Assembly (NCBI RefSeq): GCF_051622035.1
Contig: NC_135362.1
Location: 18,190,501-18,254,500, forward strand
Direction of reading: 5' to 3'
Source of the DNA: Arctopsyche grandis
Taxonomy: Eukaryota; Arthropoda; Insecta; Trichoptera; Hydropsychidae
DNA: 64,000 nucleotides
This document shows positions 18,601 to 52,388 of this stretch, one piece after another (within the stretch, counting starts at the first letter, position 1; each line of letters starts with the position of its first letter). The position numbers and the translations under genes were made by a program. A model generated the notes under the pieces. The model saw only the letters and a list, made by a program, of their open reading frames with translations, ran no database searches and had not been told where the DNA came from.

Positions 18601-21600
18601 ATATGGATAACAGTAGTGATAATGAACATCTGTATGAATCTCTTTCATTTGGCGCCTTACCAGATACAAAAGACGAACCATATGATGATTCAGATTCGTT
18701 CGATAGTGGATCAGAGCATTCATTTGATCAAGTTCCTGAGGTATATATGTATATATGTATAACATATGTAAATGCAATTATCGTTTTCCATATAATATTG
18801 TTTTCTTTTTATAGAACGATGATCCTAATATCAAAAATCCTCGGCTTCCTGATCCTCCTGTGTCTACTAGCACATATACCTTGACACATTTTGCAAAAAA
18901 AATGAAACAGTTTACGACTAATTTCACAAAAAGTACGAGAAAAAAATCAAGTAAGTGCTTTTATATATTATTTTTTAAATCAATTTGAGAATGTGTTCTA
19001 ATGTTCATGAATATTAAAAAGATTGATGTTTTAAAAATACTTTTAGATATTAACTCACCAAAAATACAATCACCTACATTGGAAATAAACCAACCTCGTT
19101 TCATGTCACCACAAGGTTCTTTGGATAAATCTAATGGAAGTTTGTCACCAATTTCACCACTGTACGAAAACGTAGTATACCCAAATTCGGAAGTACCGAG
19201 TCGGCCCGTATCAACCTCATCAGACAAATCACCACAAAATCTGACAAATAAATCAAAATCGAATAACGTGACCACAAATGATGTTGAAGAAAAGTCGAGT
19301 ACTGAAAAGGATCAGAATTCTAAAAAGATTTATCTATCACTCAAGTCAAAATTCCGTAGACCTGTGTCTATTATATATGGTTCGAATAGTACAACACTTA
19401 AGAAAAAAACAAATTCCACTTTTTATGTGCCCAAATTACCTGATGAAGTTGAAGACGATAAAAAGTAAGCTCACGTGTTAATATTATAAACAGAATTTTC
19501 AAGTAGAGGAATACAGTGCATATGTATGTATGTAAATAAATGCTTAATTTATAATTACTTTTACAGATATGAAAAAACACCACCAATTAAGAAATCTGAT
19601 GACGGAATTTCTCAAAAGAATAAAGCTGCTACCGAAAGTGAGGTGAATTGTAATACAAACGGGAAAAAGCACTCTCCGTTGAATTTATTAAGAGTGTCCA
19701 TTCCAAAAATTGGAAACATTCGACCAAATGCTCCTCCACCTCCTCCACCACAAACAATTACCTATGGTAAGTAGTAAATACATCAGCTATACATTTACTG
19801 CGTTTTTTAATTAAAATTTCAAATGTTAACTTTATCATTTTCCAGATAAATCACCAGATTCCAAAAAAGACGAAATCATTCGTCGTTCATCAGCATGTTC
19901 TTACTACAATCGCAAATCTCTTGAACAAAGATCTGAAGAAAATCGCATCTCAAGAGGAATAGCGTCATGGTAAATCAATACATAATCGCCTTTAAACATT
20001 ATGTTTCTATGTATTTGAACTTTAAAATTACACATAATCTTTGTAACAGGTATGATGAAACGGGACTTTACCAATCTAGTAATATTTCAACAAGCAGTGG
20101 AACTAGTAGTACTATGAGTGGATCTGGTACTTGCTCCACGTCTGCGGCATTTTCTTCCCCATCTACTCCAATACCTCCAATAGGCATGTTTAACCATGAA
20201 CCGCTTTATCAATTCTATGATGCAGCTAAAGTTGAGGTTATTGTGTGTTTTTTATAATCCAATATTTTTCCTTTTTATTTGTTTGATGTCTAATTATATA
20301 TTTAAATCTTTAGTTAGCATGTCGGGATATCGATGAAAATTTCAACTTGGATTCAGAGATTTACGAGGAAATAGATAACGACAAGGAAAAATATTTACCA
20401 CAAAGACCACCAGCAATGACTTTGGTGAATCCTAAAAATGGTCCATCTCGCACCCTGTGGTGCGAAGTACCTGAAGTTATTAATTCTTCTATTTTAAGTA
20501 CGAAAACAATATTAAAATGCATGAACATAAAAATCGTTTAAATTAATTTAATGCTATTAAGTTGTTTAGAAAAGGATTAATTTATTTATTAAAATATTAT
20601 AGGTTCGATGAGTGACAGAACACGGAAAGTACAGGAGGCTAAATTTGAGATTATTACAAGCGAAGCTTCATATTTAAACTCTTTGACTGTTCTCGAATCT
20701 CAATTCATTAACCACCCAGCTTTTCGCGATGAAATGATTATTAGCAAAAATGACAGGCACACTCTTTTTGGAAACATTTCCCCAGGTATAATTTTATGCA
20801 CATGTGATTTAATGTTTATGCTCACTTCGCCGTTTAATACAATTTCAAATTTTTCAGTAAAAAAATGTTCAGAACGCCTCATGTCTGAGTTCGAAAGTTG
20901 CTGGCAAGACAACATTCTTTTAAGGGGCTTATGTAAAATTTTGAAAAATCATGCAGAGAAATACTTTCATGTCTATGTTACATTTTGTGAATATCAAAAT
21001 CGACTGCCTAAGACATTAAAAAAATTAAAATCACAAAAACAATTCATCACATTATACGAACAGTTTCAAACTCAACCAATGTGTCACAATCTATCACTTG
21101 ATTCATTCTTATTACTGCCGATGCAAAGGATTACAAGATTGCCTTTATTGTTGGATGCGGTATTGAAACATCTCAGTACCGATGATGATGAATACCAACC
21201 ATATGTAGAGACTTTAAATATTTTAAACGGGGTATGTAGTTTTTTAGTCAAACACCACTTAGTAATTTGAATAAATATCAAATGAGGTTTCATTAATTAC
21301 AGGTTGTTAATCAATGTAATGAAGGCAATAGAAATATTGAACGAATTGACGAAATGAAAACAATTAGTTGTCAAATAGAATTTCCTCAGAATATTAAAGA
21401 AATTCAACTTATAGAGTCTCAAGAACAGAACAAACAAAATTCTAAGCCTTGCAGATGGCTTGTTAAATCTGGCGATTTAACTCATTTATCTTGGAGAGCA
21501 GAGGATCAATCTAAACTTACATTTGGAAGAAAAATACAAAAATCTACTATTTACTTGTTTTTATTCACAGATTTACTTGTAATCACAAAAAAGAAAGGGT

Positions 21601-23638: not shown

Positions 23639-24914
23639 TTAAATTCTCGACCTAGTGTTTCCAGTTTTCACTTCGAACAATTTTCTCACAAAGTACACTT
23701 GAAGCGAAGACGTAGCAGCGATCACGAGGATTTGGGCGAGCGACCACATCATCACGTAATCGTTATTGGCAGATAATAAATTGTAGTCTCTGGCTTCCCT
23801 GCCTCTAGAATAATATTGAAATTGCAGCATCTCATTGATGTTACGTTCCACAGTCTTAATAGTCGTCTGAAAATAAAAATATAAATAGAGAAAATAGAAA
23901 ATATAGTGCTAGAACAAAAAGATAATACTAACTGTGAAGTTTTCCATGTTGAGATGCATTTCTTCCACTTCTTTCGATAACCTGTCCCACTGATCGTATC
24001 TGATAACCGTTAAATATAAATTGACTAATTTTCCAGCGAAACGTGAAAACTGATTGTCAATGCACACGGAATAATAACCTCCGGTAGAGGTTTGATCCGT
24101 GTAATCTGCGTGAGGTTTCCATTCGTAGGGATGCACTATCTGTCCGTTTGGATGTCTCACTGCAAATCCAGCCATTCCATCGCCGCCCCGTAAAACCTTT
24201 ATTAGAAAAAAAAAAATAATGAAAACACGAATGTTCCATAGAAGAAAATCGAATGAAGTAATTGAGCGATTTTGAAATAAATGAGATATTTCTGAAGTCA
24301 TACATATGTCTATAAGTTTACATATAATAGTTTTACTTGTTTTTTATATTAGCAATGGTGTATTATTCACAGTGGGTAGAAACAATATTTCAATCTTTAT
24401 AGGTTTAAAATAGTTTGTTTGATATGAATTTATGTATAACTTTGCACATTTCAAGCGTGAATAATTGTGCAATTTGAAATACAGGCTTTCCATATGGTTT
24501 GATGACAATGAAATATTGCAAATGGGTACGAATTGTCAAATCAGCAAACGATTCCAGTGAAAGCCACAAAGTATGTCGTGCTCATTAAAAAAACGCGAAA
24601 CGTGGCCATATGCCAAGATGAAAAACAAGTATAAATGCACTAATGACCTGGAAGCTGGCATAAAATGTGGCTCCGGGCTGCACAAACTGAAAGTAGCAGT
24701 CTTCTTTGCCGGCATCGATGTGTACTTTGTAGTCCATCGCGACGGCCGGTAAGTTCTCGTACCAGGGCGAGTTGGTTCCGGCTCCGGCTCCGGCTCCGGC
24801 TCCAGGAGCAGCAGCAGCACCAGCTCCGGCGACCGTCGTCTCGGAGACAGAGACGGTGACGACCATCATCAAGGAAATCAAAGCCCCCAGCGGGGCCGCC
24901 CAGCGCGACCACAT
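23639..24914 (-). CDS. loj: p24/TMED cargo receptor, logjam type
   Basis: Three coding exons: 24914-24648, 24196-23933, 23866-23639; 252 aa. The first ATG is at 24914 and opens a typical signal peptide (WAAPLGALISLMMVVTVSVS). An Ala/Gly/Pro-rich linker precedes the GOLD domain (AMDYKVHIDAGKEDCYFQF, with the second Cys in GGYYSVCIDNQFSRF). A coiled coil and one membrane span (SLAQILVIAATSSLQVYFV) follow, then a short cytosolic tail with RKLFEVK. p24 proteins cycle between ER and Golgi and select cargo for COPII/COPI vesicles. Drosophila logjam (TMED6-like) is the nearest match from memory, with similar GOLD, stalk and RKLFEVK tail; it is needed for oviposition behaviour there. The linker lies in a GC-rich hexanucleotide repeat that probably varies in length. 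Confidence 0.92.
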
Positions 24915-25103
24915 GAAAGATCGGCGATCGGCCACCGCCACCGACACCGACACCGATACGGATGACAACACTCGCACCGACCTCCCTACCAGGCCGCGGC
25001 CAACTGACAGCTCAGAACGACACGCGACACACTACGTGAACCTACCACACATATTTGCGACCATACTCTTTTACTTTATTTACAAATTTATTGTTTCTCA
25101 TTA

Positions 25104-29900: not shown

Positions 29901-32900
29901 TTGAAAATTTATAAACTGCATTAAAGTGAAGAATATTTTTACCGGAGTTGGGCGACTCCCTAAAAAATTTAAATCTGCATTTTCACCAAACAAGTATGCC
30001 TCTGGTTGTGGCGTGTCGAATCTTTCTCCCCCCATGATGAAATGGCTTCCAAAATAATTACCTAAATTCATATGTGCATAATCAATAAGCGTATAAATAA
30101 ATTCAACAATACAAAATATTATATATAAAATAAGTTACATATAATAATAATAATAATAATAGTTTTTTATTCCAGACGATGAGGAGAATAGTGCAATCCC
30201 CAACGCCCATATAAATAATATATAGATAATAAAAAAAAAAAAAAAAAAAAGTATTGAAAAATAGTTAACAAAAAATAAATAAATAAATACATAAGTAAAT
30301 ATATAAATATTACTGATAATAAATAATAATAATAATAAATAATAATAATAATAATTATAATAAATAAATAATAATAAATAAGTCTAATAATAATAAATAA
30401 TAATAATTTTATGTCTATTCAAGGCGGTCGGTGTAGCAGTTCCATCCATCGAACATACAATGAAGAATGCAAATGAGAAGATGCAGCAGCAAGAAGACAA
30501 TTAGGCGATAAAAATATACGAAGACGTAGAGAGGCCGCTCTCATCCTGAGAATGGCTTCAAAATGAGGCACATGCCCTTCTACAAACATTTGCGACGCGC
30601 TACAGCTCCTAGGTAACCCGAAAAGAGCACGGTAACAGTTGTTGTATTGTACCTTTATCTTCCTCATCGTCTCCCGCTTGTATCTGGTCCATAATTCACC
30701 AGTATAGAGGCTAGTACAAAAGGACATAAATAATTGTCTCTTAACCTCTACACTGGAGTGGAAAAATCGTCTAGCCAGCATATTTGCCCTTACACAAATG
30801 GCTCTTCTTTGTCTTTCGATGTCACGGTCATCAGATAGATCCTCCGTCAGCAAGTGTCCCAGATACTTGACTTCCCTAACAGTTTCAAGATTACGCCCAT
30901 CTAAAATAATGTTGGGGACGAAATGAGGACCTCGACCGTATCGGAAAATCAATACCATGGATTTACTCGTATTATACCGCATATTATGTTCTGCAGCATA
31001 ACTCGAGCAAACTTCCAGGAGGCGATTCAGAGCTGACGGAGAAGGCGCCAAGATCACCATGTCATCCGCATAGCTGATGTGGTTACTGCATATTCCTCCT
31101 ATGTGGCAACCAACTCCAGTCTGTCGAAGGCGATGTGAAAGTTCATCCATGTAAAGGTTGAATAAGCCAGGAGACATTGACCCACCCTGTCTAACCCCGC
31201 ACTTCAAAGAAGCGGGATCAGAGTATGAATTCCCCCAGCGTACATGGCTGAACTGATTCCGGTGCCAGGATGCTAAAAACCTCACGATTTGACTTGGAGC
31301 TCCCCTTTTTAAAAGTTTGGACCAAAGTAGATCATGATCCACTCGATCGAAGGCCTTGGATAAGTCTAGAAAACAGGCGTATACGGAAGTTTTTCGCGAT
31401 GTATAAAAATCCACTACCTGTTTTAAAGTGTAGATGGCCATGTCCGTCGACGAGTGCTTCTTGAATCCAAACTGCTCATCAGCTGACAAAAGGTAGCCAC
31501 TTAATCTGCAACTCAATATCTTCTCTAGAATTTTAGATAAAATGGTGGCTAGAGCAATAGGACGATAGCTGTCAATGACTGAAGCATCAAGCTTTGATGA
31601 CTTGAGGACAGGAACAATAGTCGTCCTTGAAAACTCTTCAGGTACATGTTCATGCAAAATCATCACATTGAAAAGCCTTGCTAATATGATGAAGAAATTC
31701 TTACCACTATGCAGAACATGATCCGTACTAATGCTGTCCCAACCAGTTGCTTTCCCTCCAGACATTGACCTTAACGCAGTTTCAACTTCTTCGCCAGTTA
31801 TGACGAAAAACGAATCTTCTGAGATAGACATAACCATATCAGCCCTGCCCATCAAATCCGACTCTTTGAAATGCTTGCTAAACATATTGGCAATACTCCG
31901 ATGGTTGTAGATTCCATTAATATGTACCGGGATAGTACTGTTTACTGCTAAAATAGCATTTGTAGCATTCCAAAATTGCTTGAATTCTTTATTTCTATGA
32001 TATAGGGCTATCTTGTCCATAATACTTTGATTAGCGTTGCGTTGACATACCTTCAGTGCAATTTTAAAAACATGCCTAGCATGACGACGTCGGTCGGCAA
32101 TTTCTCCTGTAGAAGGGCGGCCCGCTGCGACCCATTCTATAAATGAGTTCCTCGAATCTAGGTAGCGTGCCGCTACCTGATCGTTCCAACCAGGAACCAC
32201 CTTAAACCTCTTATCATTATACTGATGCGTTGGTGAAGAAAATGATGTCGAAGCGGCATTTCTCAACACATCTACAATCGAATAATAGAGGTAATTAATG
32301 GAAGTCCTATGCTCAGTATCAGTGCATTTTCTCAAATTGCAATTTTGAAGATTATTATCACATACAATACGATCCAAAGAGTTAATTACTTCTAGTGAAT
32401 ATGCAATTATGTCGGAAGGGTTGCGTGGCATCCAAGTTGCAATGTCGCGATGACGATAATTGTGATATGGTCTCGAACGATTCAGACCATTCGAAGCAAT
32501 TATAACAAAAAGCGGACGATGATCTGACCATACTACGTCAGTGTGGACTTTAAAATCTTGAATGGATCCTAAAATTCCTTCAGATGTGATACAGTGATCC
32601 AACCACCGTAAGGAGCCGTGTGCGTCACTAACATATGTAAATGTATCAGATGGAAGACACGCATAATCATGAATCCTCAAATGATTTTCTTCACAGAAGG
32701 ATAGTAGTTCGTTCCAAAATAAAGAGCCAGGATGAGCATTAAAATCACCCATGACAATAAAATTCGAGCGACTATGATCTTCGATAGCGGCATTAACAAT
32801 GCCCAAGCAAGTAGTAAAATCTTCAAAGTTTTCTGGTTTTGCCGTCGGCATATATACATTAATAATTAACAATTCAATATCACCTTGCTGAATTTTAATG

Positions 32901-35363
32901 CAAAGTAATCTCGGATTATGAAGGTCAATTTGGGTGACTGTAAAAGTTTTTTTGTACAATATACCAACACCACCATAGGGACGTCCAACTAAAGGTCCAT
33001 TACCGCTGTCCACTGCAGATGTACCAGTGCCTTCAAATGATGGATGGAATCTTCTCAAGTATACAGTTTCAAATTCTAAAAACCATGTTTCTTGTAACAA
33101 AATAACGTCGGCCTCATTACATAGTTTGGAAATGTAGGATTCAGTACGTCGAAAAGAGCGACAATTATAGCTGACGATTGTTATTGTTTTGTCCCCCATT
33201 AATATAGTTTTTTCGGAAACGTCGGAAAACAATTCCGGTCGGCCATAAATCTTGCACGAGCAGTTTTGTTGCATTCGTGGCTTCAGTTGCAACAATGAAA
33301 GACTTGAAACCACATTTTGTTCGAGATGGTAGTTCTTTTAAGGTGAATTTGAAATTTACTTTTTTCTTTAAATATCTACTAATTATTTCGACATTCGTCT
33401 CTAACGAGAATCTAGAGATGTAAATTTCAGATTCTGGAATTACAGCTTGCAATTCAGAATCCTTGCAAGTGCCTCTTAAGTTGGCACTTCGTCTAATGTT
33501 TTTTTTCGTTTTAACTAATTTGAAATTATCGTTGTTATCATTTTCAGCTAGTGGAGCGCCAGCACTGGTTGACACTCCCTGATTGTTTGCATCGTTCGAT
33601 GTAACATTTTTCGAAGCGCCGCCACTGGTTGACGCTCTCTGCTTGTTTACATTATTCGATGTAACATTATTCGATGCGTTCGGCACAGGAGGTAGTTTCG
33701 ATTGGCTATTATTTTTGTTGGTTTTATTAGTCTGCTTACGTACGGCATCCGCAAAGGTTCCGGTTTTTTTTAATATCTCTTCCACCAAGTTAGACGCATT
33801 CAAATCGCGATTTGAAACATCGTAAGTGATCTTGTTCATATCTTCGCGCAACTCAGCTATTGCATCCTTAATGAGAGAAATATCATTCGCCCCACCCTGA
33901 GACTTCAGAACTCTCACCTCTTCCTTCAAATCTTGAATGGCACTCAGTAGTGATGTAACATCAATCGAATCGAAAGAAACAGGAGGCAAACGTCGCAGGT
34001 TGACAGCGCCAAAATTTGGTAGAACAGACACATCTGTTTCTTTAAACATTTTAATAATGTCTTGAATACATCTTAACTTTTTTAGATCACCTTGTCGTCG
34101 TGTATCTCGCACATCAGGCAGAAGTGAAATGAGCACGTTTCTCGCCACCATCATTTCATCCTCAGTAAAGAAGTCGCATATTTGGACAAGTGATACTTCA
34201 TCTAGGGTGTCTATCTTATTGCGTATGAACGCCAGAACTTCGTTAATCACCACTCTACAGGCACAAATCGTGGCCATATCGGTAGAAAGGTAGGTAAACA
34301 CGTCCGTCTGTGTATACCACACAACGCGAACTCATATTATGGAGAAGATAATATGTATATGTACATCCTGTTCGTTATATTATTTTTGTTTTTTACATTT
34401 TCAAAGGAAGATAAGATGAGTGATTCAACAATATATGTACATATGTTACTATAGGAGAATAGTCGAATTATTATTATTTTTTAATCTTTCCCATAAAAAT
34501 ATATATCACATATAAAATATGGACTGTGAAGCTTATATATTTCCTCCCGTTTTGAATTCAATCCCAAAATAACGACTCAAAAAAAAAAACAGAAAAATTT
34601 TGAACGCAATTAAATTTTATTGAATATTTGTGCAATTTCGATCAGATTAATCAAAGACGAAAGATACACTAGAGATAGATTAGTCCAGTGAGAGATAGGC
34701 TAGACAAAATAGATAGATTAGACCAATATTCTTCAAAAAATACTGAAAAGTTCTGTGAATGATTTCTATATATGTACATATAAGCATTCATAACGTCAGA
34801 CACAGAAAACATTACCATATACTACATGAAATAAGAATGTTTGTAACTAAACATGCACCTGAATTGACTTGCAAAAATAAATTACATCGATTGAATTCGA
34901 GTGATCACCAAATTTAGACTTCCTTTGAAAATTGTCACCACCTGGAAGGATTCCAAAATTAAATAGAAATCGACAGACAAGTGAGAAAATAAAGTTGTGT
35001 CAAAGAGAATAAGAATCAAATGTGTGACTACTGAGGTTGATATCATCCAATATAGCTTAATAAACAAATTTTAATAGTAGGTACATTATAAACGAAAGGA
35101 CCAAGTAAAAGTGTTCAGTGATTTAAGTATGGAAAACAATTATCTGGACCGAAAGTAGATTGAAATTGCCAATACAATCATTGGACACTCTTAAATAAGG
35201 CGCGATTGGATAAGATTCGATCAGTTTGCCAGTTAATTATTATTGGCCAGTGCATGTGTGTATGTGGTGTTTTACCTGTGGGTGGTGGGTATCTGTAAGC
35301 GTGTGCGGCCGCCACATCTGCGTGCTCAGCGGCTGCCGCCTGACGAGACCCCAACGACCCCAT
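26933..35363 (-). CDS. MGRN1: MGRN1/RNF157-type RING E3 ubiquitin ligase
   Basis: Thirteen exons: 35363-35276, 30061-29943, 29864-29617, 29542-29355, 29287-29130, 29045-28803, 28712-28545, 28467-28291, 28034-27900, 27798-27528, 27457-27327, 27252-27171, 27087-26933; phases close to 720 aa. The N-terminus MGSLGSR has Gly2, suiting myristoylation as proposed for the family. The signature block AYLFGENADLNFLGSRPTP and the MGRN1 substrate-binding region follow. A C3HC4 RING begins near residue 281 (CVICMCDVRD; CRHLCLCNSC; CPICRAPF). The tail is acidic and Ser-rich. These ligases ubiquitinate membrane-receptor and endosomal-sorting targets. I see no P[ST]AP motif like the one mammalian MGRN1 uses to bind TSG101. 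The donor ending exon 10 (GTGCGT) is weak and was chosen because only that phase stays open. Intron 1 (5.2 kb) contains a LINE in sense orientation. MGRN1 and RNF157 are not separable here. Confidence 0.9.
30419..33274 (-). CDS. LINE ORF2: endonuclease and reverse transcriptase
   Basis: ORF2 polyprotein of about 951 aa from ATG 33274; a second candidate start is ATG 33199 just before the endonuclease. The apurinic-type endonuclease has IVSYNCRSF, LLQETWF, VMGDFNAH and SDHRPLF at its catalytic positions. The reverse transcriptase has SYRPIALATILSKILEK, FLDLSKAFDRVDH, GVRQGGSMSPGLFN and the active-site YADDMVIL. It ends in a domain with scattered Cys and His and no RNase H. It overlaps ORF1 by at least 33 nt in another frame, so translation probably relies on reinitiation or frameshifting. 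It nicks target DNA and primes reverse transcription from the nick. Clade placement (Daphne/CR1-like) is from memory of motif context only. Confidence 0.92.
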   Translation of the reverse strand: MQQNCSCKIYGRPELFSDVSEKTILMGDKTITIVSYNCRSFRRTESYISKLCNEADVILLQETWFLEFETVYLRRFHPSFEGTGTSAVDSGNGPLVGRPYGGVGILYKKTFTVTQIDLHNPRLLCIKIQQGDIELLIINVYMPTAKPENFEDFTTCLGIVNAAIEDHSRSNFIVMGDFNAHPGSLFWNELLSFCEENHLRIHDYACLPSDTFTYVSDAHGSLRWLDHCITSEGILGSIQDFKVHTDVVWSDHRPLFVIIASNGLNRSRPYHNYRHRDIATWMPRNPSDIIAYSLEVINSLDRIVCDNNLQNCNLRKCTDTEHRTSINYLYYSIVDVLRNAASTSFSSPTHQYNDKRFKVVPGWNDQVAARYLDSRNSFIEWVAAGRPSTGEIADRRRHARHVFKIALKVCQRNANQSIMDKIALYHRNKEFKQFWNATNAILAVNSTIPVHINGIYNHRSIANMFSKHFKESDLMGRADMVMSISEDSFFVITGEEVETALRSMSGGKATGWDSISTDHVLHSGKNFFIILARLFNVMILHEHVPEEFSRTTIVPVLKSSKLDASVIDSYRPIALATILSKILEKILSCRLSGYLLSADEQFGFKKHSSTDMAIYTLKQVVDFYTSRKTSVYACFLDLSKAFDRVDHDLLWSKLLKRGAPSQIVRFLASWHRNQFSHVRWGNSYSDPASLKCGVRQGGSMSPGLFNLYMDELSHRLRQTGVGCHIGGICSNHISYADDMVILAPSPSALNRLLEVCSSYAAEHNMRYNTSKSMVLIFRYGRGPHFVPNIILDGRNLETVREVKYLGHLLTEDLSDDRDIERQRRAICVRANMLARRFFHSSVEVKRQLFMSFCTSLYTGELWTRYKRETMRKIKVQYNNCYRALFGLPRSCSASQMFVEGHVPHFEAILRMRAASLRLRIFLSPNCLLAAASSHLHSSLYVRWMELLHRPP
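33165..34277 (-). CDS. LINE ORF1: nucleic-acid-binding protein
   Basis: A 370-residue ORF starting MATICACRVV, taken as the first ATG of the frame. The N-terminal part (VSLVQICDFFTEDEMMVARN) resembles the FTEDE-type ORF1 of CR1/Daphne-like elements. It is followed by a predicted coiled coil (IQDLKEEVRVLKSQ; IKDAIAELREDMNKI) and a low-complexity section in which an ASTSGGA/VSTSAGA unit is duplicated. The C-terminal region (EIYISRFSLETNVEIISRYL) looks like an RRM/PHD-type binding fold. ORF1 proteins coat the element RNA. No CCHC knuckle is evident. Confidence 0.8.
   Translation of the reverse strand: MATICACRVVINEVLAFIRNKIDTLDEVSLVQICDFFTEDEMMVARNVLISLLPDVRDTRRQGDLKKLRCIQDIIKMFKETDVSVLPNFGAVNLRRLPPVSFDSIDVTSLLSAIQDLKEEVRVLKSQGGANDISLIKDAIAELREDMNKITYDVSNRDLNASNLVEEILKKTGTFADAVRKQTNKTNKNNSQSKLPPVPNASNNVTSNNVNKQRASTSGGASKNVTSNDANNQGVSTSAGAPLAENDNNDNFKLVKTKKNIRRSANLRGTCKDSELQAVIPESEIYISRFSLETNVEIISRYLKKKVNFKFTLKELPSRTKCGFKSFIVATEATNATKLLVQDLWPTGIVFRRFRKNYINGGQNNNNRQL
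34331..35275. other. Remainder of intron 1 of the MGRN1-like gene
   Basis: AT-rich intron upstream of the LINE, with no gene or further mobile element identified. A GATAGATTAGA-type short repeat occurs at about 34670-34720. Confidence 0.45.
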
Positions 35364-36565: not shown

Positions 36566-37473
36566 AGGTCTGTTTATACTTAACAGCACTGCACGACTCC
36601 ATTTCAAATATGTCATTTTATTACATTTCTATTCATATCTACCTACACGTCACGTTCACAGCACTTTGGCCGAGTGCAAGGCAAAATCGGCTTACTTATA
36701 CATTACAGACCATGACGATACGGCGCAATATTGCTTACGTCGTATTGTCGAGTACTTACAATATGAATGCATATACGTGCATTCGTAGCTACGCGTCAGA
36801 ATACAAGTAAGCAAAAATGTTTTGGCGTTTATCGAACGAAAAATGATGTATAATCACGCTGTTGTTGGAAGAAGAAGCTCAAGAAGACAATAAAAAAGCA
36901 CGGAGGCGTTTTGATGTGCATCCCATGTTAAAAAATAGAAAAACCGAAGGAGAGTTTTGGACACTGTATAAGGAGCTTGTGGATGATGGACAATTTTTTT
37001 TTAAACATTTCCGTATGAACCGATACCAATTTGAAACAATACTGGATAAAATAAAAACACAAATCACCAAAAAATCTACAAAATTTAAGGAAGCATTGTC
37101 AAAAACTCATTGTCAGCGCCAAAACCATGTCGAAAGATTGAACAGCTGTCAACTGTCACTATCGATAATTGGTCCAAAACAGCAAAGCGGCAGACTCATG
37201 ACTACCAAAGAATACTTTTCGTACGGCCGGATACCTGCTGAAGTCAGTACGTGCCGACTAGGTATGAACGGTAATTGGACTATTCGTCACATTGGGGTGG
37301 TCACAAAGACAATTTTTGCCATGAAAATCGCGAATACACAATATTTGGCACTCAAGTTCTCGTTACTATGATAGTTATCGTTAGTATGATGGACTTTTCG
37401 GCTGCCAGATGTTCCGTTATAGAGATTTTAGTGACTTTGTGACCAGTAATCACCGAACCGTATGAACAGACCT
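36566..37473 (+). mobile_element. PIF/Harbinger element with decayed transposase
   Basis: A 908-bp element. Left end AGGTCTGTTTATAC and right end GTATGAACAGACCT are inverted repeats, with TTA on both sides (36563-36565 and 37474-37476) as a 3-bp duplication. It contains a HARBI1/ALP1-like N-terminal coding remnant. Its right subterminal region (37437-37459) shares about 20 bp with the fold-back element at 46115-46385. It ends about 290 bp upstream of the MED9 ATG. Confidence 0.85.
36862..37371 (+). pseudogene. HARBI1-like transposase-derived remnant
   Basis: An open stretch of about 170 codons without a convincing ATG. The first ~75 residues carry the Harbinger N-terminal signature: an acidic leucine start, RRRFDVHPML, GEFWTLYKELVDDGQFFFKHFRMNR in pieces, then YQFETILDKI. 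After about residue 80 the similarity fails and the DDE nuclease domain is missing. It is a remnant of a full-length transposase of several hundred residues, cut down by internal deletion. Confidence 0.75.
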
Positions 37474-37759
37474 TTAAATAAATAAAACAGCATTTAAATG
37501 GATAAAACTTGATGACGTAAAATTGACGACATGCGCCTGCTCAAAGGAAATAACTCCGCGCGCCCGCTGGAAGGTTAAACAGAATGTCAAAATAACGTTT
37601 TATATTGAAGTCAATTCGATTGTGATCGTCGTTCGCCGTTCGCCGTTTGACAATGGCATGGCGCATGGCATGTCAGGTTGGCAGCGCGTGGGCTATTACT
37701 ATCGAAAGCCGGTGTCGGCGTTTCGTCGGGGAGCGGGAAGCGGGAAGCGGGAAGCGGGG

Positions 37760-38927
37760 ATGGAGACGGTGGGCGTGGGGGCGACGGGGCCGGGAGGGGG
37801 CGCGGGGGCGGCGACTCCGGGGGCGACGGGAGTGGGGGCCGGAGTCGGAGTCGGAGTCGGAGTCGGAGCAGGAGTGGGGACGGGCGCGGGCACGGGCGCC
37901 AGCACTCCTACGGGAGCGGAGACGACGAGCCCCGTGGGAGCGCCGGTGCCGGTCGTGTCGGCGGGGGCTCGCGACGTCGACGCCGACGTCTTGCCGCTCG
38001 TCTACGACATCATCCGCAGGTCAGCTTTTTACTACTTTCCTTCACTTCACTTCACTTCAAAAGTCAAAAGTCTTTAGTCGTGAGTCGAGTGACAGACAAC
38101 TTTTGACAGCTGTCATTTCTTGTCTCCTTACGGTTGGTAGTGACTCTCACTCTCCTACTCTCGCGTTGACATTTCAGCTTGGAGCGGGACGCACACGACA
38201 GTTCGACGAAAGCTCGCGACTCCCACGACTGCAGTGTTAAAGTTCTCGAGCTACACGCCAAACTTGACAAAGCACGTGCACAGGTAAAACATTTCACTAT
38301 TATCTAACTTAACCTAAAAGTTTGTTACGTTGGCCCCATGTATTTGTGTTGTCGATATTTATATTCAAAAGTCATCTTCGATACTTTTCATTCTACATTC
38401 ATCTTCTCGTCGGAAAGATTGTTCATTCATTTATAAAACTAAAATTAACTATTATGTTAAATCACCGTTGCAATTTTAAAACTTGAGAACTCACTCATTA
38501 TCCTACGAGGCAGCCATTTAAACTTTGGCGCATTCAGTACATTAGCATACCAGGTGCTATTCTATTATTGGTACTATATATGTGTATGCTATTTATGACG
38601 TCTGTCGACGAAAAACGTAAGTCACCCTCAACACAACACACCAGTCATCGACAAACAGCACTTTAAATAAAATACTTATGTAATCGCGTTTTCAAATCAA
38701 CCGGTTTGCAGTTTACAATTATTATAAAATTACTCGGATCAGTTTTGTTTTGTTTTGTATTACAATTTTGACGTTTTTTTTTTTAGATTCGCCGATTGCC
38801 TGGAATCGAGTTCAACAAACAAGAACAATTAAGACAGTTTGAAATTTTAAGAAACCAGTTACATTTGAAAAGAGAACTGTTACAAAAATATAGGAACATG
38901 TGCTCATTCGATACTCCATTCCAGTAA
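37760..38927 (+). CDS. MED9: Mediator complex subunit 9
   Basis: Three exons: 37760-38019, 38178-38283, 38787-38927; about 168 aa. The N-terminus is a long Gly/Ala/Val/Pro-rich low-complexity segment coded by GC-rich hexanucleotide repeats. The conserved C-terminal domain follows: DVLPLVYDIIRS, then ELHAKLDKARAQ, IRRLPGIEFNKQEQL and RELLQKYRNMCSFD. This matches the MED9 (Med9/CSE2-type) middle-module subunit, whose C-terminal helices anchor it to the Mediator core for RNA polymerase II transcription. The ATG at 37760 is preferred; an in-frame ATG at 37658 would add 34 residues. The next ORF starts 22 bp after the stop. Confidence 0.9.
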
Positions 38928-38949
38928 AAGTGAATAAACTCGTATCGAA

Positions 38950-39216
38950 ATGCCTCTCAGGTTTTTGTTTCGATATTTAGCTAATAATGAACAGTTGGTC
39001 CAACGTATAGCTGAATCTTATCCCGTTCGAAAGGCAGCGAGATTTTGCGTATCCATCTACTATCGCACTCAAAACATTGCGAGGGAAAGTTTGCCCCCGA
39101 CTGATAAATTTGACGTAGCGTGGATGCGTTCTTTTTTAAGTCGTTTTAAAGACAATCTTTCGCACGGTATTAAAGATGCACAGCAACAGTTGAAAGATAA
39201 AGGGAAAAGAAATTGA
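38950..39216 (+). CDS. NCBP2AS2-like small protein
   Basis: A single-exon ORF of 88 aa. The N-terminus MPLRFLFRYL and the block QLVQRIAESYPVRKAARF match the human NCBP2AS2 family (LRRLL, QLVERLSESRPIRRAAQ, as I recall it). The tail is lysine-rich. The family is small and was long overlooked, and it has been linked to secreted or mitochondrial roles; the function in insects is unclear. It begins 22 bp after the MED9 stop on the same strand, with no room for a separate promoter unless that lies inside MED9. AATAAA motifs follow at about 39315. Confidence 0.85.
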   Translation: MPLRFLFRYLANNEQLVQRIAESYPVRKAARFCVSIYYRTQNIARESLPPTDKFDVAWMRSFLSRFKDNLSHGIKDAQQQLKDKGKRN

Positions 39217-41328
39217 TAAATAGGATACTTTATCTGAATTTGTATATAAAATTGATTGTGACGAATGCCTGTTGAAACCAATTAAATTTTAAAATTAGAT
39301 GTATGTAAGAAAAATGTAATAAATAAAAAAAAATTAATTATAAAATACTTTCGATGATTTTAATTTTTGCATTAGTTAAATTTATATGCATAGGTTGGCG
39401 TATTGTGAAATTAGTAAAAAATAACTAACACCATTTTCATGAAATATTTATTATTTATCTTTCATAATTCAATTTATAATTTTCAAGTTTTTTTTTTTTT
39501 TAAATCTAACACCATTTTTAAAATCAAACACACTGTTAGGAAAAATATGTATTTTTATAAAATATCGATCTCGTGAAATGTAAAAAGCATAAAGTATTTT
39601 TAGATTTTTTTTATTTTATAATTAGTAAAAGAGAAATCACGTCACAAGTTCAATGTTGTAAAATTGATTTAAATGTAACCTTATTAACTTACAAATATTT
39701 AAGTAAGCTGCTTATAAAAGATAAAAAGAACATTCATATCAAATTAGCTAGAGTTCTCTGCTGTCGAATAAGTCTTGTGCAATACTAAAATTGTTTTAGA
39801 TCATTTTGTACATTATAAATACTACCTCATTACATAATAATAAATATGCCGAAAATACTTTTATTTACAATATTGGAAAAATTTAATAAAATTTGTATTG
39901 ATTCGAGTGGAATCATTTGATAACTGAAGCAGAAACCAAACAAAAACAATGTTAACTTCATTAATATTGTGTGTGGCAATTGTAAAAACGAAAACGTAGA
40001 ACGCAAAATCCAATATTCAATCACTTTCACTTTGAGAAATAAAGTTAGTTGAATGTGTATCATTAAAAAGCGTACTTTGATTCATATTTATGAAAATAAT
40101 TATTGGAATAGGTTTAACCGTGTCAATTGAAGTCATCCAAGAAATAAATAAACGAAAATTTTCTAAAGAAAACGATTTTAATATACCTGATGTTTTCAGA
40201 TCTAGTTTTATATCGTACATATTTAAATTAATGGACATTGAATTTCTGATTTATTTTTTCAGCTATCAACTGAAAATGTCAATATATATGTATCTTTATT
40301 TAGTCGCAGGTTTCGACTGACAAAACTCAATGATGTACAACAGTTTTTATAAATATAATATTTACGTATGTAAGGTAAAATTCATGGCGTGGAGTCATGG
40401 AGTCGTAGCATTTCAAACGTAGTCAGAGTCGTAAAAAATCAACCGACTCCGACTCCATTTTATCATTTTGATTAATTAATAATATTACAATATGTGTCAA
40501 CCAGTCTCCAATTTTATTGAAATAAATCCACTAATAAATTGCAATTGAATAATATCTTTATAAAACTCATGAAATTAAATTACATTATAAATAAAAACGT
40601 AGAGTTGCACGTATGTATTTTGATGTTGTGGCCAAAACCGATTAATTCCTGCGTTTCGTACTTTTTTTTATTGAAATTCGTAGACATGCACTATGAATAT
40701 ACTTAATTTTTTATATTTTGAAAATCGCTATTATTTTTATTACCAACAATTTTATACATTGGCAAGAAAAGTCGATTTTTCTAAAAGCGTTCCAAGTTGA
40801 AGTCGGGACTCGAATCATGAGATAAAATCGGAGTCAGTAAATTTTGAAGCGACTCCACAGCCCTAATAAAATAAGTCATTATGTGAAAATTTATCGAGAA
40901 AACGTACATACATAATATGTAAGTGTTTTAACAAACGTGCTAAAGAATAGTCTGCCATTTTAAAACTTAAACTTTTTGAATATTCCAGAAAAACCACATA
41001 TCAACAAATTTCCACGCACATTTATGTATCTTCTATGAATAATAAAATATTTTTTAAATCACATTTTGTCGATATGTAAAAATATAAATTTTCTCAGAAC
41101 ACCCAAGTTTAAAATGGGTGCATACCATTAATAAACCAAAAAAAAAAATCACAAGAATTTCAACTTAAATCTAATCAACAATCGAACGGAAGACGTTGCC
41201 ATATTTATACAACTGTATTACTATTCACATTGCAGTGTAAAACATGAGACAGTGTTTACCATAATATTATTGTAATAATAGCGTCTACATTTTCCGAAAA
41301 TATTTGTAATACTCGTATCATACTTTCA
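39217..41328. other. Convergent intergenic region with a degenerate MITE
   Basis: AT-rich DNA between the NCBP2AS2-like gene and GTPBP1, whose 3' ends face each other. At about 40385-40865 there is a repeat rich in GGAGTCG/CGACTCC. Its right end reads GACTCCACAGCCCT and a related inverted form (GTGGAGTCATGGAGTCG) lies at the left. This resembles hAT-type MITEs with AGGGCTGTGGAGTCG ends, but no clean duplication was found. Nothing else is recognised. Confidence 0.5.
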
Positions 41329-44300
41329 TTAATTTTGAACACTCAGCGTGATAGATTGTTGCTCGGTCGTACTGATATTTTGTTCTGGTTGTACGTCAAC
41401 TTCATTATTGGCCGCATTAGCTTCAGTTGGCTTTTTCCCTCTAGACTTGCGGTTTATTACGCGCTGTTGGTTATTTTCATTTCTTTTATCGTTTTGAATT
41501 TCGAATGGAGAGCCTGTATTTGTTACTTCTGTTGGCTGTACAAAAAAAAACCTCATTAAATATAGAAAAATAAAATATATCGCGCGGTATGTTTTCAATC
41601 AATCATACCAGGGGCATGTGTTGTTGTGGACAGGTTGTTCCGCTGTGATTTTGAGAATCGTGCGCTTGGTTTTGTTGATTTCTTCCGTGCATCTTATTAG
41701 GCTTTGTTCTCGGGGGTTGCTGAACGTTATTGGAATGTATTAAGCGTACTACATTTCCAACCGCTTTCGTGCGTCCCTCCCGGAAAAGCTAAAAATTATT
41801 AAAAAATATCGCTTTCATGTATACATAGTTGTGATTTTGCAACGTACATGTGGATTCTATCAAATTTTACAAAGCTACATTTGTGTATATGTTACAGTTG
41901 AAGTATATTTTGTACTATATACATTTGTAATATATTTTGACTTGTTGAAATATATTCCATCTAACCCACGTAAGTTGATTCAAATGGCGACTTACAATTC
42001 AACTGGTCAAAATATATTACAACTGAAAATACAGTTCAACTACAAGTTGGTACCCGTTTAGATGAGAGGTTAAGTTTTCATGAAAATGTCACTCAACTAG
42101 TAAATTGAGTTGGAAAGTCACATTTTTGTTTTGAACAGATTCTTAGAGTTTGATCGTAATATGGTACTCATTACCTTTGCTCGTAATAACTAGCAAATAT
42201 TAATGCATTGTTGGATTCCAAAGCATTCGTAAAAACATCAGAACTGTCAAAACTCAACTGTTATACATATTACAACTGACGCTCATTGTTGAAAGTGTAT
42301 TTGCGCTTGTACATAGAACTATGATTTACTAGTTGAATTGTATTAGAATATGAATGACTTAAAACGCCAGTTGGAATATATTACAACTGAATATATATAT
42401 GTACATAAATAAAAATTATTATAGTTACCATTCTCTGTCCCGGTTTGATATATTCTGGATGCTTGATGAAACGAAATCGAACAATGGCTTTATCGCCTGT
42501 TCGTAAAAATTCTTGTGACATACCCAAAATTGAAGCTGTCTGTCGAATACTTCCACAGTGAACTAATAAAGTTGTAAATATTTGATTTTAATTTAAAAGT
42601 AGCTTTATTTAAAATTGAATTGTTAAAACTATAAAACTAATTACCCATTGCTTGATAACTTGAAAGGATGGTAGTTGGGTGATGTAAAACTAATATTTCA
42701 CCATCAAACTGCCAACACGCTTGCGGATTCAACGCTGGAGAAACCATCACCATACCTTTTCGTATTTGAGATCGCTTAATCTATCGGAACCAATATTATT
42801 GTATAAATTCATCATTCATATTGTATTGGAAACTATCATTTCAATGATGATGTATTACCTTTTTTAAGGCAAAACTGGCTGTTTGGCCTCCTTTCACCTC
42901 GCGTACGTTCATTCGCTTTCTGTGAATACTTTTCACGGCAATCGGTATAAAACGACCTAACAGATCTGGTCCTAATAATAGAGTGTCGTTCAATCGAATT
43001 GTACCTTGTAATGTCGTCCCCGATACCACTGTCCCTACACCCTATCACAAAATTAAAATTAATAGATGTTTTAAACCATTTAAAGAAACAATTAATATGT
43101 GTGTAATTACTGGAACGGAGTACGTGTCATCTATTTGAAACTCGGCTGGCTCTTGATCTCGACTCGGCATTCGTGTATTTAATAAATTTAAGAACATAGT
43201 AAGGAGATCCAAATTTTCACCGCTCATGTTGGATACTTGAAATATCGGACACAGCCTAAAAGTGTTTTCACAGAACGATTGAATAAAAATTACAATTTAA
43301 AGACATATTATATTTTGTTCTTTTAACCTTTCAGAAACGAAATTAGTTGCACTTAAGATGACATCATCACTTGTTTTAACCATTACTGGAACTTTTCTAC
43401 AGCCAGGAGATTTAAGTAATCTTATCAATATCTTTAAATTTTCCTGTAAAAATATTCAACGTTAACAAGTTTTTGCGTGAAATTAGCACTTCATCAAATT
43501 GCATCATATTACATACAGCCAATACATTCGGTGGACACATATCAATCTTTGTGACAACTACAAAAACGGGTACTGATAGTGCAAGAGCTAAACCAAGGTG
43601 TTCCTTTGTCATTCCAACAATACCGGCATTGGCACCAATCTGGAGTGGTTGTAAAAAAGTATTAGTGAGTGTTAATGCAAGATTAATATCAAAATTTCAG
43701 AGCTGACTGATATTTGAGTATCTCACCATCAACATTCCAAAATCAGGAGCATGTCCTGTCATACCAAATACAGTAGTTTTTAAGTAGCGCTCATGTCCGG
43801 CAAGATCAATGAAAGTAATTACTTTTGAAGATTTCGTGCAAACGTTTACCCAATCTAATGTTCCATGGGAAGGTTTGTTTACAACGTTTCCTATAATATA
43901 AAAATAAAATATTTCAATTAGCAGAATATCTTTTGGTTTTAATGCTACGTGTTTAGTATTATATTCACCTAAACTGTCGAATCCAAGTATATCATTTCCA
44001 ACTGAACTAGTTCGTCCACTTTCAATCTCATGTTTATGTCGAAATAGTCGTTGTCGGGCATAGCCTCTACCATTATCTAATTCTCCATGAGTTAATACAC
44101 CCAATAAAGTAGACTTTCCAGCATCGACATTACCAACAACAGCAACTCTGCAACAAATTAACATAAGATTAAAATTTTAAATAATTAAGAGATAATAAAA
44201 TATCTTATTTATAGCATACCTAATTTCCATGAAATCTGCATCTTCAAGTTTTTTCCTTAGCAAATATTGCCCTGTTAGTAGTTGATTTGGAGGAGAACCT

Positions 44301-49528: not shown

Positions 49529-52388
49529 TTATTTTTGAAAAAAGGAAGAAATACTTTTGGTAGTTTTCGTCTCGATAGTGGAGACCTTGGTTTCATTTTT
49601 TCTTTTTTTGTGACCTACACTCAACTCACTGGCACGATTAGTCACAATTGGTTTATTTAGCTCTATTTGTAACCTTCTCGCTTCGTGATAATCTAAATGT
49701 TCTTGATATTTTGACTCTTCTATTGCTTTACCACATTCAGTACAAGTGCTATGGGTTACATTTGCATCAATCTTTTGATTGTTTTGACTGGTAATCTTAC
49801 TAAATAATTTAATGATTGAATTGTTTGGTGCCGGTTCGTCAATTCGTTTTCTCTTATTGCTGTGTTTGATATCCAAAGTGGGTTTGGAGATACATTTACT
49901 ATTATTTATTGTTTCGTTAACTTTCCTTTCTTCGTTTCTTAATGACATGGCGAAATGATAATCGTTGTGTGTTGACAATTCAGATTCGACTATATGTGCA
50001 TTGCATTTATCGCATGCGACTGTTTTTTGCGGTGCTTCGGTTTCTTCTGGAGTATTATTTAGATTAGTTTTGTTTAGAGTGTCCGAGCTGAAGAATTTAG
50101 ATATGGAAAATGTATTCCGTGATCTGATGATTTCGCGTTTTTCGTTACTATCTTCATTTGGGTTTATTTCGTTATCTAAACTGTTCTCTGATACGTTTGG
50201 ATCAGATTTTTGCTCATCAATGTTCAACTTGGAAACTGATGCGCCTGGTGATTTTTCATGAACGTCATCTGTATTTGATTTAGCAGGTGTAGTGAATTTT
50301 TTAAAATACTTCACAAAGAAAGAATTTTGAACTGAATCATTTGAATCATCCGATTGCACGTGTTGTATTCCATTAGCTTTCGAATTTATTGATTGTTCTT
50401 TGATCAAATGTGTCGTATCAGCTACGTTTTTTTGTATTTCATTTGCTTCCTTACTCGATTTATCGACTTCAACATTTGGTTCTTTACTTTTCTTCATTTG
50501 ACCAAAAAAATCTTGAATGTTTTTGCCTTTTGAGTTTGCATTGCTCATGTTTTCAAATTTTCCAACACTAATTCCAAGAAACGTAATTGGACTTACCAAT
50601 ACCATTTTATCTTGTGGAATATCTAAAAATTCCCAAATTTTATGACGTTAAAATACAATTTATATATGAGATTTATAATTTATTGTACTAAATAGATTTA
50701 CCTGAGGTTTCAACTTCAGGAACACAAAATGGTTTTGAGTCTTTTCTGATTAAATTCAAAGAATTAACGGCTAAAGAGGCAGCACAGAAAATTTCTTCTC
50801 TAGATAAATTTACAGACCGAGAACCAGATACATTTTTTCCCTTGGTTACTTGTTTTGTGAAACTCACAACCATTTGGGTAGGATATCTGTTATTTTCAGA
50901 TGAATCTGATTCGAGTCTTTCTTGGATCTCGCTTGCTAGTTCTTTCAGCCAGTGAGATAAACTCGCAAAATCTGTTAAAGCCATTTTACCAGCAAATTTT
51001 TTACAGCATCCTATGCTTTTAGCATTAAAACGAGGTGTAACTGGCTCGTTATCTATTCCTCGGGCTATATTATAAAGCCAAGATCTATAAAATATCGATA
51101 GTTTTATTAAAATTATAGACGGCTGAAATTATTACAATATTAGATATGATAAATGATACCCATTCTTTTCATCAAATTTTTTTTGTAAATCCTTTTCAGA
51201 AAAATTTTCAAGTTCTTTCATGATGGATATGTTTAATGTTTTACATACCAGATCGCCAAACTTTCCTCCTAGATGTCTTATTTTATTTATGGATAGAGAT
51301 CTAAAATTAAGAAATGTTAATTATATTGGCTAAAAACGATACAAATGTGTATACAATCAAAATAAAAGACAAAAACACTTTACTCAAAAAGATTTGCAAC
51401 GCAGTTTTTTGGTAGAACAGTTTGTTTGTTAGGTTTATTCATGCCGCAAACCAATTTAGCCATTATTTTATTATGTGCAATACCAGCAGAACATCGGAAA
51501 CCTGAAAAACATAATTCATTTAAAACGAGCTATAGTCGAATGTTTTTGATGATTTTGAATAAAATACCTGTTTTTTCGTAAACAGCAGTTCTAATTTCGC
51601 TCACAATAACAGCGCCGACAAAAAGTTTCAATGAATGCAACTGATCAAATCCAGACATTTCACAATCAAGTTCATTTCTATCATATACATCCGAAGAAAA
51701 ACTTTCAATATTATCATATCCCAATATGTAAGTATTAGGTAAAAATTTGTCATGTATCCTTTCGCCCTTTGTATAACAATCAATTTTGGATGCAACCTAT
51801 AATAATTAAGTAATAATGTATATAGTTTAAGAATACATTATATATTTTTTTTGATCAAATATGTACATACTACGTCGGTTATATCTAAATATGCTTCATC
51901 AATCGAAGCCCTTTCTAGTAAAGGTGTAAATTCTTGCAAAACATGAGCAACGTCCTTTCCAGCATCTCTGTACCTGAAAACTTATTGATTTTAACGGAAA
52001 GTTTAAAAATTAGGATAGCAAAAACTGATAATAATCTCACTTTGAAATATCAGCTTTTCCACGAACGCAGGGTACACTGGGCAATTGGATTTCAGGACAC
52101 ATTTTTTTAGCTTCATCTCCTCTCATGTGTCTCGTTACACCCTTAGAGCGGGCTATATAATTGACTGCAATAATTCTAAGAACATCGATAAACTGTAGCG
52201 ACCTCAAATAGTTCAAAGTTGTATGTAATTTTGCATTAAATCATAAATCCTAACCCTCCTCCTTGCCATTGATTATACTGAACGACGGCTATAGGCTTTC
52301 CTTTCAATTCTGGATTCAGTTTTTCTTCAACTTGACAATAGAAACAATCCATATCGATTAAAACCACGACTCTTTCCGAAGACGTCAT
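49529..52388 (-). CDS. PolH: DNA polymerase eta (Y-family translesion polymerase)
   Basis: Eight exons: 52388-52255, 52175-52041, 51973-51871, 51796-51568, 51501-51384, 51300-51160, 51084-50702, 50622-49529; 778 aa. The catalytic aspartate is Asp12 in VVLIDMDCFYCQ, and SIDEAYLD gives Asp115 and Glu116, the same numbers as in human Pol eta. Finger, thumb and little-finger regions follow (CSAGIAHNKIMAKL; RHLGGKFGDLV). Pol eta copies past UV dimers at stalled forks. The long C-terminal exon has a PIP-like NIQDFF, then two UBZ zinc fingers (CDKC...HNDYH; CTEC...HLDYH), each preceded by an FF-type motif (SISKFF; SIIKLF), and ends SISSFFQK. The ATG is the first in frame and directly precedes the catalytic core. 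Confidence 0.95.

Follow-up and report, generated by a model that had tools for sequence, protein, structure and literature searches.

The gene for the Mediator subunit MED9 in Arctopsyche grandis is followed on the same strand, after an intercistronic gap of only 22 nt (38928–38949, +), by a small and complete NCBP2AS2-like open reading frame, here called ORF2, and we consider it probable from this arrangement that the two frames are carried on one dicistronic transcript, in addition to which cleavage at a poly(A) signal at position 38933 may give a MED9-only form. All positions are those of the window, by which we mean the whole 64,000-nucleotide stretch of DNA that was analysed (NC_135362.1, 18,190,501 to 18,254,500). 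A gap of 22 nt is too short to hold the usual 3′UTR of one gene and the promoter of the next, which argues for one dicistronic unit; two independent genes separated by it would have to overlap, each ending or beginning inside the other. The initial annotation had proposed that the two frames may share one mRNA, and this proposal is partly supported: a shared message would be the most economical reading of so short a gap, and it would fit the overlap between MED9 and CG42518 that is recorded in Drosophila.

MED9 and the NCBP2AS2-like frame

MED9 is encoded by three exons on the plus strand (37760–38019, 38178–38283 and 38787–38927), which are separated by two GT-AG introns (38020–38177 and 38284–38786, the second being 503 bp long and bearing four TCAKTY initiator-like motifs) and which give a product of 168 aa. 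This product contains the full Med9 domain of Pfam (E 2.6e-21; 75.9 bits, where the cut-off is 26.9 bits; profile positions 1–80 of 80), which identifies the gene as MED9 and bears out its earlier description as complete and conserved. Exon 1 is coding and has a GC content of 77%, and exon 3 is coding up to the stop codon TAA (38925–38927). The start codon at 37760 is uncertain, because upstream ATGs at 37658 and 37670 are also in frame with no stop intervening. Out-of-frame ATGs at 37653 and 37665 are interspersed with these two, and the one at 37653 (+), which has a good context (ACAATGG), opens a frame of 172 codons across MED9 exon 1 that is relevant only if transcription begins upstream of 37653.

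ORF2 (38950–39216, +) encodes 88 aa in a frame without an intron, and its ATG lies 22 nt past the end of the MED9 stop codon (38927) on the same strand, just as had been described. For comparison we used a human protein of 99 aa, which we take to be NCBP2AS2. The first 31 residues of ORF2 align with this protein without gaps from residue 1, with 15 identities and a score of 70, and the C-terminal part aligns poorly. Shuffled sequences scored 24 on average (standard deviation 4.2–4.3), and none reached 70 in two runs of 5,000 and 20,000 shuffles (0/25,000 in total), whose largest scores were 66 and 67. ORF2 is also the top match to the human protein among the 89 ORFs of the window, counted as ATG frames of at least 60 aa from the first ATG, and the next-best ORF scores 39. 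The human query sequence is identical to an unnamed entry in the small-ORF table of PMC11351124. ORF2 is complete, and its similarity to the human protein lies in residues 1–31.

In random sequence of the local composition, an ATG ORF of at least 88 aa started so close in 4 of 20,000 trials. A Pfam search with ORF2 returned no family above its cut-off, a search of solved structures returned nothing credible (best E 0.083), and a single-sequence fold, which has four helices (mean pLDDT 63.2, pTM 0.33), was too weak for use. Judged by the human alignment and the random trials, ORF2 is a gene and not a chance frame. The function of NCBP2AS2 has been called essentially unknown (PMC13326166).

Searches of the 475.7-Mb assembly that score only the best candidates located MED9 and ORF2 in one place each and detected no duplicate of either gene or of the stretch 38787–39340. 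No relative was confirmed in viral_contigs (22 pattern stretches) or genome_contigs (207); these collections hold viruses and prokaryotes only, so the empty result is uninformative on other insects. The human NCBP2AS2 gene adjoins NCBP2 in antisense orientation. Human NCBP2, used as the query, gave 13 matches, of which the top two are neighbours on contig C9 (73% and 82% identity) and the other 11, at 24–35% identity, look like other RNA-binding proteins. ORF2 follows MED9 on contig C8 and NCBP2 has its best match on C9, so the human neighbourhood of NCBP2AS2 is not kept here, a difference that bears on the origin of the name and not on protein homology.

Expression of the two frames

The 22-nt gap does contain the AATAAA that was first noticed there (38933–38938, +), and a GU-rich tract, GTTTTTGTTT, stands downstream of it at 38961–38970, within ORF2. 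Of the 10-mers compared for eight signals, this tract, with G or T at 10 of 10 positions, is the best, and it could act as the downstream element of the AATAAA at 38933, a plausible poly(A) signal that counts against a shared transcript. The chance of an AATAAA in such a gap is about 3% (0.0316), so its presence is weak evidence alone. The first AATAAA past ORF2 is one of two overlapping copies, at 39318 and 39322 (39318–39327, +), which are the likely mRNA end for ORF2; a weaker ATTAAA lies ahead of them at 39281. UGUA occurs three times in the 100 nt upstream of 39318 and four times in the 100 nt upstream of 39322, and is absent from the 100 nt upstream of the signal at 38933.

We infer that transcription from a MED9 promoter lying ahead of the start codon would yield one primary transcript, from which the two introns would be removed and which would end at 39318/39322, carrying both frames. 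Some transcripts may be cleaved at the gap signal, and these would be MED9-only mRNAs, because a cut directed by this signal would come right where ORF2 begins or slightly within it. An early end of MED9 and co-transcription with ORF2 had been presented as an exclusive choice; each is possible, but the choice need not be exclusive, and both may occur, as the upstream poly(A) ends in FlyBase suggest. From the long form, ORF2 would be read by ribosomes that scan past the MED9 start codon or that resume scanning beyond the MED9 stop. Read-through of the MED9 stop codon into a fused protein is rejected, because MED9 and ORF2 are in different frames.

The 529 nt that run from the start codon of MED9 to that of ORF2 hold two ATGs, both in the MED9 frame: the start itself and a sole internal AUG, nine codons ahead of the stop. 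Synonymous shuffles of the MED9 frame (n = 2,000) averaged 1.64 out-of-frame ATGs, and 8% of them had none; the scarcity of AUGs falls short of significance (P 0.08 when out-of-frame ATGs are considered; P 0.10 for so few internal methionines at an assumed frequency of 2.3%). The title of an article by Wall et al. from 2005 refers to first cistrons that lack in-frame AUGs, and MED9, with its one internal AUG, comes close to a strict rule of this kind and departs from it by a single codon. The MED9 start lies in the G-rich context GGGG-AUG-G, which is poor when measured by the A-rich start consensus of insects, and the ORF2 ATG is preceded by GAA. The predicted fold of MED9 exon 1 has an energy of −137.9 kcal/mol (z −1.83; 10 of 200 shuffles equally stable), and so GC-rich and folded an exon would impede scanning, which counts against the shared transcript as the best explanation. 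The frame opened by the out-of-frame AUG at 37653 would likewise count against scanning to ORF2, if transcription starts upstream of 37653.

The alternative that survives best, although we consider it unlikely, has two monocistronic genes that overlap: MED9 would always be cut after 38933, and ORF2 would be driven by a promoter of its own within intron 2 or exon 3 of MED9. Such genes could draw on the good GU-rich tract behind the AATAAA at 38933, but this signal lacks an upstream UGUA, unlike those at 39318 and 39322, and the MED9 3′UTR would be just ~20–40 nt long. Promoter motifs are similarly divided: TCAKTY occurs four times in intron 2, against an expectation of 1.25 (P 0.038, uncorrected, in one of six motif-region tests), and a TCATTC at 38904 lies 46 nt upstream of ORF2, but by inspection intron 2 has no TATA box properly spaced from an initiator motif. 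The presumed MED9 promoter at 37400–37759 itself holds no initiator motif (0.25 expected) and no TATA box. The presence of initiator motifs in intron 2 and their absence there count for overlapping genes and against the shared transcript. Such motifs fail, however, to mark even the promoter that MED9 requires, unless this lies elsewhere. Precedent comes from the 45 of 159 FlyBase dicistronic loci that have monocistronic forms of both genes (PMC4528330). The Drosophila overlap of MED9 and CG42518 tells against two separate genes, though it is compatible with them too.

It is far less likely that ORF2 is expressed through a separate splice form from the same promoter, with the MED9 start omitted and each mRNA functionally monocistronic. 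An acceptor-like site ending at 38924, with 69% pyrimidines, lies 25 nt ahead of ORF2, and some FlyBase monocistronic forms result from splices that disrupt one coding region (PMC4528330); the strongest acceptor in 38600–38960 is nevertheless that of MED9 intron 2 (81% pyrimidines), and the locus has no known upstream untranslated exon. That ORF2 is no gene but a reading frame left open by chance in the MED9 3′UTR is scarcely credible, for the lack of a Pfam family and of a credible solved relative is outweighed by the ungapped human alignment, which no shuffle equalled and which was the best of the 89 ORFs, and by the rarity of such an ORF in the random trials.

Genomic surroundings and age of the pair

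A dicistronic MED9–ORF2 transcript might have left a retrocopy of the spliced joint message, and none was found by the best-candidate searches of the assembly, which counts against a joint mRNA. In the window, two overlapping long frames of 972 and 388 aa on the minus strand (30419–34331) look by eye like a non-LTR retrotransposon (endonuclease and reverse transcriptase, with a first ORF), and a 174-aa frame that precedes MED9 by some hundreds of bases (36847–37371, +) looks by eye like a piece of a transposase, its best Pfam match (E 0.64) being below the cut-off. Pfam matches above the cut-off elsewhere in the window are a RhoGEF domain (20593–21267, +), a member of the EMP24/p24 family (23909–24343, −; E 2e-9), an EF-Tu-like GTPase (43700–44176, −) and two ubiquitin-binding UBZ fingers (49532–50647, −); a weaker EMP24/p24 piece at 24585–25031 (E 0.017) is below it.

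The assembly contains a telomerase domain and TTAGG runs, with 24,896 forward and 18,545 reverse matches, overlapping ones included. The telomerase RNA-binding domain (L012, G000:C8:27114887-27115270) lies in an uninterrupted frame of 742 aa, so the telomerase gene is without an intron there. One TTAGG run of ~75 bp (G000:C1:24599938-24600012) is deep inside contig C1, which is longer than 42.6 Mb, and is either interstitial or a join. Flies, to our knowledge, are without telomerase and without TTAGG repeats, so these features argue against a fly genome. A search for the lepidopteran lipoprotein family returned no match, and neither did its control.

If CG42518 is the same gene as ORF2, the MED9–ORF2 pair predates the split of flies from the present lineage. 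We raise, as a possible but doubtful extension, that an insect MED9–NCBP2AS2 dicistron has existed since that split, in which the gap AATAAA would switch between MED9-only and joint mRNA and the choice of 3′ end would balance the two proteins. A gene order common to flies and to an insect with telomerase and TTAGG repeats would, if true, mean that the dicistron is old and selected, and an old dicistron would be a natural test of second-cistron translation in insects. It would also link the expression of a Mediator subunit to a small protein whose function is essentially unknown, and the phenotypes of MED9 knock-downs or mutants in such species could belong to the second protein. The Drosophila MED9/CG42518 insertion is homozygous viable and lethal over deletions, and the authors who report it state that deletion crosses alone cannot formally tie lethality to such insertions (PMC4978919).

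Comparison with dicistronic genes of Drosophila

Dicistronic mRNAs had been called rare in animals, which is too strong for insects, because FlyBase 6.04 counts 159 dicistronic pairs in D. melanogaster and 2.5% of its protein-coding gene models include a polycistronic transcript (PMC4528330); the arrangement is uncommon, yet well documented in flies. Of the 159 pairs, 45 produce both proteins from the dicistronic form alone, another 45 have a monocistronic form of each gene and 69 are mixed, and 5′ monocistronic forms are usually ended at an upstream poly(A) site (PMC4528330). The same source reports that small proteins are over-represented in dicistronic loci and that the distance from stop to start in exclusively polycistronic loci ranges from −34 to 319 nt, and its File S1 is the full list of FlyBase polycistronic genes (PMC4528330). 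The Drosophila MED9 pair is probably listed in File S1, and we do not claim that it is unpublished. Among the papers searched, none was found that treats MED9 together with dicistronic or bicistronic genes of Drosophila or with polycistronic genes of insects.

FlyBase reportedly treats MED9 (CG42517) and CG42518 as a dicistronic pair that was split from CG5134. The prefix CR denotes a non-coding gene. The insertion P{lacW}MED9-SH0499 has the associated allele CG42518-SH0499 (PMC4978919, Table 3), a double naming that footnote b of the same paper uses for an insertion in a region of gene overlap; for MED9/CG42518 the term given there is overlap, not dicistronic, and the strand is not given. In the top section of that table, 7 of 28 rows list overlapping genes, and in two of the seven the partner carries a CR number (PMC4978919); the Drosophila overlap need not be a dicistron. 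CG42518 is in addition the site of a noncanonical RNA edit (PMC12634045). The Drosophila locus and the present one are alike in that MED9 overlaps another gene, and CG42518 may be the homologue of ORF2.

MED9 and ORF2 are two complete frames close together on one strand, as in the dicistronic loci of FlyBase, and their 22-nt gap falls inside the range for exclusively polycistronic loci. The FlyBase dicistrons have cDNA or RNA-seq backing, whereas MED9–ORF2 is known here from sequence alone; the two are alike in having a common strand, a short gap and a small second protein. MED9–ORF2 thus appears to fit the FlyBase dicistronic class, and the AATAAA in its gap, together with GTTTTTGTTT, would fit the mixed kind.
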